In this document: positions 19,021 through 21,938 of the stretch, in pieces
Position numbering within the stretch: position 1 is the first letter of the stretch
How the letters are laid out: each line of letters begins with the position of its first letter
The notes under the pieces: generated by a model
Databases searched by the model: none
Told to the model about the DNA's origin: nothing
What the model saw: the letters and a program-made list of their open reading frames with translations, nothing else
Translations under genes and position numbers: made by a program
DNA from: Pseudomonadota bacterium
Lineage (GTDB): Bacteria; Pseudomonadota; Gammaproteobacteria; UBA5335
Assembly: GCA_034189865.1 (NCBI GenBank)
Contig: JAXHTV010000014.1
Span: 1 to 64,000 of the forward strand
Direction: 5' to 3'
DNA: 64,000 nt

Positions 19021-19784
19021 ATCCTGAATCTGCAATGAATCCATATCGGGGTTAAGTTTTGATTCTGGGGCCCCTGAAGCGTCGTGCGGTACGCTAGCGC
19101 CGGGTTTTCCGGTGCGACCTGAGTAGCGGCTTTCCCTTGATGATTCAATTCACCCGGGTGTGGCTTATTTTCAATATTTCGCCACTGTAAGATCTTACAG
19201 GTGACACTGACGGTGGGCTTTGGCAATTTGGGAACCGTTGCAGGGGAAGTGGGTGTGCTCTCGGTTTTAGCTTCACTTCCTGTTACAGCGGGGCAACCGT
19301 GCGTATTTGACCTGTCTACGCTTTCCCCCAAGAGCTGGACGGTCTGACCGATGCGACGACCTGATGCACGTGGTTGCTCTTGGGATCATTGGCGAGGATT
19401 TTGGAATACGGATATTTTTGGCAATGGTGAACCCGCATGCCTCCCCAAGGACGCGGGCCCTTTCCCCAAGGGGCAGCTTATCCCATGACACCAGGCCGTC
19501 CGATTCCTCATACAGTTAGGTTCCCCGACCCGACAATCGCTATGGTCCATGCTGACAGGGTGCGATAGCTTCGGTAGAACCGATTGCGAATTCACCTCTT
19601 CCTCTGCAACATCCATCAATTTCCTTCTATCATTTGTCCCCGGATCACCAGCTCGCGATTAACATCCGAGGCCAGTGATTCTCAAGGATGGGCTATCTCG
19701 TCCGATTTAGTGTTTCGATTATTTGACGGTTGTCAGCTAACTCCGTGGCGGGGCTTTTGTTAGGTGGTGCGAGTTGCTTGTGGG
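19021..19784. other. Gene-poor stretch downstream of tRNA-Glu
   Basis: About 760 nt without a convincing gene. The open frames here have no family motif, no good ribosome site and mixed composition. It lies directly after a tRNA gene, a place where integrated elements often sit, but I see no integrase, no repeat of the tRNA 3' end and no IS end. The only clear signal is the palindrome at 19185-19200. Confidence 0.6.
19185..19200. promoter_or_regulatory. LexA-box-like palindrome
   Basis: CTGTAAGATCTTACAG is a perfect 16-bp palindrome of the form CTGT-N8-ACAG, the LexA consensus of many gammaproteobacteria. TAAGAT inside it could act as a -10, as is common at SOS promoters. No recognisable SOS gene follows, so its role is open. 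Confidence 0.4.
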
Positions 19785-20348
19785 ATGCAGAGAGCGAGAG
19801 CTCTGACGGGGATCGTTTTCTTTGTTTTGGCTTTTTTGGGCGGATTACCCCGGATTGCCGAGGCCGGCGAAATCTGGTTGCTGGTCGATACGTCTGAGTT
19901 CCGTTTGCAGGTCATGGATGGTGATCGGCCCGTGGCGACCTTCTCAGATGTGGCTATCGGACGTAACGGCGTGACTGCGGGAAAACATGCGCAGGATGCG
20001 AAAACACCCTTGGGTGAGTTCCGTGTCGCGTCACTCAAACCCAGCCAAGCGTTCCACTTTTTCGTCGGTTTGAACTATCCGAATGAAGCGCACGCGCGGC
20101 AGGCCTTTGATGATTTTCGGTTGACGCCACGGCAGTATCACCGGATCGTCACGGCGATTCGCAAAGGCCAAACACCTCCTCAGGAAACGCCCATTGGCGG
20201 GTACATCGGGATCCATGGGGTGGGGGAGGGTGACGCTCAGATCCACCGGCGATTCAATTGGACCCAGGGGTGCGTCGCGTTAACCAATAGCCAGATCGAT
20301 ATCCTCCGATCCTGGATCAAATTGGGCACTCGTGTCGTCATTCGCTGA
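19785..20348 (+). CDS. L,D-transpeptidase (YkuD domain), secreted
   Basis: About 187 residues. A signal peptide (MQRARALTGIVFFVLAFLGG, then LPRIAEA) is followed at once by a YkuD domain: WLLVDTSEFRLQVMD, KTPLGEFRV, and the active-site region GIHGVG...WTQGCVALTNSQID with catalytic Cys and upstream His. It acts in the periplasm, forming 3-3 peptidoglycan cross-links or attaching a lipoprotein to peptidoglycan. GTG at 19764 is an alternative start giving seven more residues; both have weak ribosome sites. It precedes the Lpp-like gene by about 180 nt in the same direction, which makes Lpp attachment a plausible role. Confidence 0.88.
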   Translation: MQRARALTGIVFFVLAFLGGLPRIAEAGEIWLLVDTSEFRLQVMDGDRPVATFSDVAIGRNGVTAGKHAQDAKTPLGEFRVASLKPSQAFHFFVGLNYPNEAHARQAFDDFRLTPRQYHRIVTAIRKGQTPPQETPIGGYIGIHGVGEGDAQIHRRFNWTQGCVALTNSQIDILRSWIKLGTRVVIR

Positions 20349-20532
20349 TTGTCCGTTTTTCAGTCGACGACTTCCAAACGACCTCGATGCTGTTTGATTT
20401 CGGCCAGCCTCGGGTTCTAGCGGGGCCTTGCAAAACGGTCAGGAAAGCCACACACTTTGTGCCGTGCACCCCTCGGTAGGGCGCTGACGATCCGCGTGTA
20501 TGACTGTTTCAAAGTGAACTAAGGAGATCTAG

Positions 20533-20814
20533 ATGGTTGCCAAGTATGCAGCACCTTTGGTCATGGTTTTAGCCCTTTCTGGTGGGTTGGCGGGGTGCGC
20601 CAGCACTGCCGAGACGATGAGTGATGACGATCTGGCTGCGTTGACCGAAGCGGTGAAGAATGCAGAAGCGGCCGCGATGGAGGCCAAGAACGAGGCTACC
20701 AAGGCTGCTCAGATGGCTGCTGAAGCTAAGCAAGCTGCCGCCGACGCCCAAGCGACCGCCAATGCGACCGACGAAAAACTGAATCGCGCGTTTAAAAAGT
20801 CCATGTATAAATAA
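20533..20814 (+). CDS. Lpp/OprI-like outer-membrane lipoprotein
   Basis: 93 residues. The lipobox is LAGC (C22), so the mature protein is a 72-residue lipoprotein. From about residue 35 it is an alanine-rich helix (AEAAAMEAKNEATKAAQMAA and on) with Ala in heptad positions, the alanine-zipper trimer of OprI/Lpp. It ends in MYK; in Lpp the C-terminal Lys is the residue joined to peptidoglycan diaminopimelate by an L,D-transpeptidase. AAGGAG seven nt before the ATG predicts very strong translation. It lies between two L,D-transpeptidase genes and has its own terminator. The upstream 184 nt show only a weak promoter (TTGCAA at about 20429). Confidence 0.9.
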   Translation: MVAKYAAPLVMVLALSGGLAGCASTAETMSDDDLAALTEAVKNAEAAAMEAKNEATKAAQMAAEAKQAAADAQATANATDEKLNRAFKKSMYK

Positions 20815-20851
20815 ACGCGATCTGTCACCCGCTGACAGGTTATGACGATTG

Positions 20852-20900
20852 ATTGCCGCTGGCAGAGCTCTTTGGAGAGGCCAGCGGCAATTTCGTTTTT
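20852..20900 (+). terminator. Terminator between the lpp-like gene and the converging L,D-transpeptidase gene
   Basis: ATTGCCGCTGGC (20852-20863) pairs with GCCAGCGGCAAT (20880-20891), a 12-bp stem with a 16-nt loop, then TTCGTTTTT. A smaller stem (CTGTCA/TGACAG, 20822-20838) precedes it. Confidence 0.85.
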
Positions 20901-20942
20901 GCGGTGGTAATAAAGCCTGTAAGGGGCGGGGATGGTGTTTCG

Positions 20943-21938
20943 TTAGAAAATCGACGCGCGGCTGCTGCTATCCACGCTGGGCGCCGTTACGGAAATCACA
21001 ATCGGAATCCCGCTGCGATCTTCTACTGCTTGTCTGACTCTCCCCCAGCTCACGGTGGTGGGGCGTCCGGCGGTTGCCTTGAGTACCACCGTCACCGCAT
21101 GGTCATACAGGGACCGATCCGGCGAGTCGCTCTCTTCCAGCGGTGGGTGTACCTCGATAAAAAGTTGCTCTGCTGCCCAACCGGCTTTCACCGGCTGATT
21201 GACCAATTGAACGGGTGTGTTGACATCCACCCAGCGAAACAGTTGCTCAATGTCTTCCGGATACATACGAACGCAACCGTGTGTGACCCGCATTCCGACG
21301 CCGTAAGGTCGATTTGTGCCATGGATGAGGTAGCCGGGCACGCCTAAACGAAGTGCGTGTTGCCCCAGTGGGTTGTTTGGTCCTGCCGGGACCACGTCCG
21401 GTACCGTTTCTCCGCGGGCGGCAGCCTCCGCCTTGATGGACGCCGGAGGATGCCAGGCAGGATCTTTCACTTTTTGAATGATACGCGTCTGACCCAGCGG
21501 AGTCGCCCAGTCCATCCGGCCGATGCTGACCGGATAGGTGTAGACCGAAGGAACGTCTTGTTTGGTGTTCTTGGGAAAATAATACAAGCGCATTTCCGGG
21601 ATGTTGAGCACAATCCCGCGGCGCTCCGCGTCCGGAAGAACATAGCGTGAAGGCAGAATGACCGTTCGACCTTCCCCGGGCAGCCAGCGGTCCGTGTCGG
21701 GATTGGCGATGACGATCTCATCGTGTCCCAGGCTGTATCTCCGGGCGATATCCAACAGTGTGTCTTCTTGGCGAGAGGGTAGCTCGAAGACTTCACCAAT
21801 CAGGTCGGTATCAACCGGCGGTAGCGGATAGCTCTGTGCTTGTACCTGAGAGGTGGTGCTACCGACCAGGGTGAGGAAGGTCACCAGTTTGGAGAAACGA
21901 AGCGCCCTCATCATTGGATTGATATGTTTCCCATTCAT
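20943..21938 (-). CDS. L,D-transpeptidase with LysM domain (ErfK/YbiS type)
   Basis: 331 residues. A signal peptide (MRALRFSKLVTFLTLVGSTT) leads to a LysM-like peptidoglycan-binding segment (EDTLLDIARRYSLGHDEIVI...NPDTDRWLPGEG) and then a YkuD domain (residues 105-250) with HGTNRPYGVGMRVTHGCVRM, holding the catalytic His and Cys. This domain order and the C-terminal extension are those of ErfK/YbiS/YcfS, which attach Lpp to peptidoglycan. It converges on the Lpp-like gene. Start could be 21938, or the ATGs at 21914/21911 directly before the signal peptide; none has a good ribosome site. Confidence 0.9.
   Translation of the reverse strand: MNGKHINPMMRALRFSKLVTFLTLVGSTTSQVQAQSYPLPPVDTDLIGEVFELPSRQEDTLLDIARRYSLGHDEIVIANPDTDRWLPGEGRTVILPSRYVLPDAERRGIVLNIPEMRLYYFPKNTKQDVPSVYTYPVSIGRMDWATPLGQTRIIQKVKDPAWHPPASIKAEAAARGETVPDVVPAGPNNPLGQHALRLGVPGYLIHGTNRPYGVGMRVTHGCVRMYPEDIEQLFRWVDVNTPVQLVNQPVKAGWAAEQLFIEVHPPLEESDSPDRSLYDHAVTVVLKATAGRPTTVSWGRVRQAVEDRSGIPIVISVTAPSVDSSSRASIF

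Follow-up and report, generated by a model that had tools for sequence, protein, structure and literature searches.

What would two different YkuD-domain enzymes do beside a single Braun-type lipoprotein gene? Outer membrane-peptidoglycan tethering governs envelope stability and vesicle release, and a lipoprotein gene flanked by two YkuD genes was noticed in a contig of a gammaproteobacterium, within the window considered here (the whole 64,000-nucleotide, or 64-kb, stretch of DNA that was analysed). The Lpp link of E. coli is dynamic, with YafK hydrolysing at least half of these bonds in each generation (PMC11449479). About one third of Lpp-bearing genomes lack a DpaA-like protein, and release in these has been left to some "other protein" (PMC8263019).

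Gene content and orientation of the locus

All three open reading frames of the original prediction lie where it had placed them (Table 1), and the order that it described, a YkuD enzyme, an alanine-zipper lipoprotein ending in Lys and an ErfK/YbiS-type enzyme, is confirmed by the reading frames and by matches to PF03734 and NF040598. The prediction gave no strand for the third gene, which lies on the minus strand and is convergent with the lipoprotein gene; the three genes are therefore a cluster and not an operon, and a three-gene operon is ruled out. The ATG of the first YkuD gene yields a plain signal peptide (MQRARALTGIVFFVLAFLGGLPRIAEA), and a GTG at 19764 is a possible alternative start. 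The stem-loop between the convergent genes is a probable terminator of the lipoprotein gene. A sigma-70 promoter scan around the locus gave results no better than chance, and an Rfam search of the window returned tRNAs only. The ∼700 bases (19040-19760) that separate a tRNA-Ala/tRNA-Glu pair from the first YkuD gene contain no convincing gene and no Rfam match, with a G+C content of 0.53 compared to 0.58 for the window.

Table 1. Features of the lipoprotein locus, in positions of the window
Feature	Position	Strand	Evidence
Secreted YkuD-domain protein, hydrolase-type (Ala two residues after Cys)	19785..20348	+	PF03734 6e-21; family alignment; PDB profile search
Codons for catalytic Cys (20271-20273), Val and diagnostic Ala (20277-20279), motif TQGCVA	20271..20279	+	
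Shine-Dalgarno-like AAGGAG, six bases 5' of the lipoprotein ATG	20521..20526	+	Direct sequence reading
Lpp/OprI-type alanine-zipper lipoprotein, 93 aa	20533..20814	+	NF040598, PF11839, alignment
Stem-loop followed by T-run, between the convergent lipoprotein and Ldt genes	20851..20901	+	Fold -33.4 kcal/mol, z = -5.3
LdtA/B/C/E (LdtPae2)-type L,D-transpeptidase, 331 aa, THGCVR	20943..21938	-	PF03734 3e-25; NCBIfam LdtE; E. coli identities; PDB 9tyw

The lipoprotein and its convergent L,D-transpeptidase

The lipoprotein scores above the curated cut-offs of both NF040598 (49.2 bits, cut-off 43) and PF11839 (3e-9; 37.5 bits, cut-off 23.1), and carries a lipobox LAGC with the lipidation site at Cys22 and a C-terminus SMYK (terminal Lys codon 20809-20811). 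An alanine-zipper lipoprotein with a C-terminal Lys is likewise found in the oprI/LdtPae2/LdtPae3 system of P. aeruginosa, in which LdtPae2 performs the attachment (PMC10434034). Lack of conservation of the terminal Lys in orthologues had been named as evidence against a covalent link; the residue is present in 49 of 50 relatives, a count that may favour Lys somewhat, the loci having been picked by a lipoprotein model that covers it. Together with the recurrence of the cluster, this supports the proposal that the linked genes serve to attach the outer membrane covalently to peptidoglycan. The sole sampled lipoprotein not ending in Lys (L139 in genome G104, 1584-1874) ends in MRKGR, and the Ala-type YkuD homologue of that genome is divergent and unlinked to it. 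A possible second lipoprotein paralogue in the genome that contains the window (L007; contig C9, 1483-1779) was rejected at 24 bits as a different small lipoprotein; it is acidic, ends in Lys-Asp-Lys-Lys and adjoins a predicted outer-membrane beta-barrel gene.

The active-site motif of the minus-strand enzyme fits the consensus (S/T)-x-GC-x-R. Its best NCBIfam model is LdtE (227 bits, below the equivalog cut-off), it matches PDB 9tyw (5e-84), and it shares 37-38% identity over its full length with each of E. coli LdtA, LdtB, LdtC and LdtE, being equally close to all four. It had been described as a LysM-YkuD protein, of which the YkuD domain stands, whereas no Pfam LysM match was found up to E = 10; the corresponding region aligns with the LysM region of E. 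coli LdtE (LysM 1e-8 there). A match to the Ldt_C domain (23.1 bits) falls below the Pfam cut-off of 26.8.

In E. coli, lpp had also been described as unlinked to ybiS-type genes, which is correct for ldtA, ldtB and ldtC but not for ldtE, a member of the same lineage. In E. coli K-12 MG1655, lpp (b1677, 1757421-1757657, plus strand) and ldtE (b1678, 1757721-1758725, minus strand), of the ErfK/YbiS/YcfS/YnhG type, are adjacent and convergent, 63 bp apart. The window thus shows a conserved pairing of lipoprotein and Ldt genes, not a new linkage. The resemblance ends upstream of lpp, where E. coli K-12 has pykF and no YkuD gene, its dpaA lying far away.

The synteny survey that had been suggested was carried out in 369 gammaproteobacterial genomes drawn evenly across the class. 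An LdtE-type gene is present in 107 of 113 lipoprotein-bearing genomes and lies convergently downstream at 84 of 116 lipoprotein loci, while the first YkuD gene is linked to the lipoprotein gene in 48 genomes. The full three-gene set occurs in named genomes including Onishia, Modicisalibacter and Halomonas species. Recurrence of the cluster across dozens of bacterial families puts the linkage far outside what chance would give. Genome G169, which we take to be Pseudomonas-like from its OprI sequence, has the same convergent pair, and the first YkuD family was not found there at the search threshold used.

E. coli LdtE forms 3-3 cross-links rather than attaching Lpp, and the role of the window enzyme is thus left uncertain by sequence alone. 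Attachment of the lipoprotein is the expected role, because the same lineage attaches Lpp in E. coli (LdtA/B/C) and OprI in P. aeruginosa (LdtPae2); YkuD sequence lineages sort imperfectly by activity (PMC10434034).

The first YkuD protein as a probable hydrolase

The two YkuD enzymes were originally thought to divide their labour between 3-3 cross-linking and lipoprotein attachment. The active site of the first protein (TQGCVA) points instead to a likely division between attachment and detachment, with Ala two residues after the catalytic Cys in all 78 relatives (48/48 gene-linked and 30/30 unlinked). E. coli transpeptidases have Arg at this position, while DpaA, the amidase that releases Lpp, has Ala (PMC8263019). 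When the family profile was compared with the PDB, Bd1075, Pgp2 and DpaA ranked ahead of any transpeptidase, and transpeptidase-type YkuD proteins gave the weakest matches (E ∼0.06). Profile-profile comparison gave a score of 115 to DpaA-like proteins vs 56 to LdtA/B/C/E-like proteins, and a fold search with the AlphaFold2 model found the carboxypeptidase Bd1075 as best match, with DpaA ranked 43rd; the model (pLDDT 72) is weak around the active site and does not separate amidase from carboxypeptidase. On account of the Ala motif, the PDB profile ranking, the Bd1075 fold match and the profile-profile scores, the first YkuD protein is most likely a hydrolase, and probably not a 3-3 cross-linker, a reading to which the co-occurrence described below also contributes.

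The alternative in which 3-3 cross-linking (or lipoprotein attachment) falls to the first YkuD protein, and the other job to the supposed LysM-type enzyme, appears improbable. It would fit the catalytic Cys and His of the YkuD domain, the 3-3 cross-linking by LdtE beside E. coli lpp, and the unclean sorting of lineage and activity (PMC10434034), but every relative has Ala in place of the transpeptidase Arg, and transpeptidases are the weakest matches in the profile search. In addition, the genome encodes a separate LdtD-like protein (contig C4, 37% identity to LdtD), which is the better candidate for 3-3 cross-linking. Two further short YkuD proteins are encoded in the same genome: L005, of the Arg type, and L004 (contig C26, 1426-1914), a secreted Ala-type protein of 162 aa with the motif TNGCIALTN, 31% identical to the first YkuD protein and 26% to DpaA. 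L004 is a competing candidate for the releasing enzyme. Given the LdtD-like protein, L004 and L005, other candidates remain for both cross-linking and release.

Among hydrolases, the main rival to lipoprotein release is L,D-carboxypeptidase activity, in which the first YkuD protein would trim tetrapeptide stems to tripeptides, leaving fewer acyl donors for the Ldt and limiting attachment indirectly. The carboxypeptidases Bd1075 and Pgp2 are the top profile and fold matches, Pgp2 likewise carries GC-x-A, so that the motif does not fix which hydrolase is present, and carboxypeptidases and DpaA alike lack the transpeptidase Arg (PMC8263019). However, the Trp of the D-Ala pocket (Trp158 in Csd6), which is specific to carboxypeptidases and missing in DpaA (PMC10653827), is absent in 78 of 78 relatives, where the position, placed by sequence alignment, is mostly Gly. 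The first YkuD protein also differs from Bd1075, Pgp2 and Csd6 in having no extra domain. The strong profile-profile match to DpaA-like proteins argues further against a carboxypeptidase, as does near-confinement to lipoprotein-bearing genomes, which would be unexpected for a general stem trimmer. We regard carboxypeptidase activity as rather unlikely.

The most likely action of the first YkuD protein is DpaA-like release. With DpaA/YafK (PMC8263019, PMC10653827) it shares Ala after the Cys, the lack of the carboxypeptidase Trp, an N/P-rich segment preceded by an aromatic residue, and a significant profile-profile match. It differs in having Thr in place of Ser in the motif (T-x-GC-x-A, compared to S-x-GC-x-A in P. 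aeruginosa), a long insert before the catalytic Cys, no C-terminal extension and a tight association with the lipoprotein. Direct BLAST against E. coli DpaA gave no significant match (E = 0.11), and no DpaA-like match was found in genome G000 at 1e-8. The essential Lys83 in loop L1 of DpaA has no Lys counterpart at the aligned position in the gene-linked clade, where 41 of 48 members have K/R at the next residue; in the unlinked sister clade, 23 of 30 members match DpaA in the position of the Lys. As the motif is undecisive, being shared with Pgp2, and Lys83 is not strictly conserved, the protein is not filed as DpaA. Short YkuD proteins (∼165 aa) from relatives without the lipoprotein were considered as members of the same family and rejected, their motif being of the Arg type (SHGC[VI]R).

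Association with the lipoprotein and a putative attachment-release cassette

The first YkuD family was found in 85 of the 369 genomes, 81 of which also encode an Lpp/OprI-type lipoprotein, compared to 113/369 overall (odds ratio 159). The four exceptions are explained on inspection: in G202 a linked lipoprotein is present but was missed by the threshold, the G078 and G106 contigs break off on the flank expected to carry the lipoprotein gene, and the G081 protein is an off-family member of the Arg type (SQGCIR). Two control groups were counted in the same genomes: the lipoprotein accompanies the LdtE type in 63% of cases and DpaA-like proteins in 31%, the latter without enrichment. Among lipoprotein-bearing genomes, 77 have the first YkuD family only, 6 have DpaA only, 4 have both and 26 have neither; the two tend to exclude each other (p = 0.03, uncorrected for relatedness).

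Fifty loci, in 48 genomes, have the first YkuD gene less than 2 kb from the lipoprotein gene, and at 46 of these loci it lies directly upstream on the same strand. The resulting proportion of linkage is biased, the family profile having been seeded with gene-linked members. The co-occurrence of distant, unlinked members is free of this bias. In the phylogenetic tree, a single clade (support 95/87) holds the linked members and a few proteins that became unlinked secondarily, and its sister clade is mostly unlinked, yet also derives from lipoprotein-bearing genomes. A different order is seen in G089, G213, G249 and G316, in which the lipoprotein gene and the convergent Ldt gene are followed by an Ala-type YkuD gene in the direction of the lipoprotein gene.

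The association could also stem mainly from common descent of a conserved gene neighbourhood, with some other substrate for the first YkuD protein; the genomes are indeed not independent, and the seeding of the profile with linked members points the same way. We consider this quite improbable, since the pattern persists when kinship is handled by counting families only (43 of the 45 bacterial families with the first YkuD protein are also lipoprotein-bearing), the unlinked clade still occurs in lipoprotein-bearing genomes, two genomes hold two separate copies of the YkuD/lipoprotein pair (L056 and L082 in G270, L068 and L080 in G365), and the LdtE-type and DpaA-like proteins have a weaker association or none in the same genomes.

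We therefore favour, with a probability of about one half, a reading of the cluster as an attach/detach cassette around a Braun-type lipoprotein, in which gene content, orientation, linkage, motifs and co-occurrence are observed and the activities are predicted. After export and lipidation at Cys22, the lipoprotein would be retained in the outer membrane. By homology, the LdtE/LdtPae2-type enzyme, with its Arg-type active site, would cleave a tetrapeptide stem between DAP and D-Ala and join the DAP carbonyl to the side chain of the terminal Lys of the lipoprotein, so that the outer membrane is anchored to peptidoglycan. The Ala-type first YkuD protein would perform the reverse, hydrolysing the DAP-Lys amide and so setting the lipoprotein free, the reaction carried out by DpaA/YafK in E. 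coli; motif, profile and co-occurrence make the lipoprotein link its most likely substrate. With the releasing enzyme encoded beside its substrate, the cell could tune the tethered fraction.

LdtPae3 of P. aeruginosa, also an Ala-motif YkuD protein, has been tentatively assigned to release (PMC10434034). No earlier description of lipoprotein-linked Ala-type YkuD genes was found in the literature searched, which covered few subscription papers. The first YkuD family is a candidate release enzyme for Lpp-bearing bacteria without DpaA. More specifically, and more tentatively, it may be a releasing-enzyme family dedicated to the lipoprotein and distinct from DpaA, encoded beside its substrate in many gammaproteobacteria, and thus the "other protein" called for previously (PMC8263019). 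A conserved, often gene-linked, hydrolase-type YkuD protein that is nearly confined to lipoprotein-bearing genomes provides a concrete and testable candidate for release. If this is true, lipoprotein tethering would be a reversible switch encoded at one locus.
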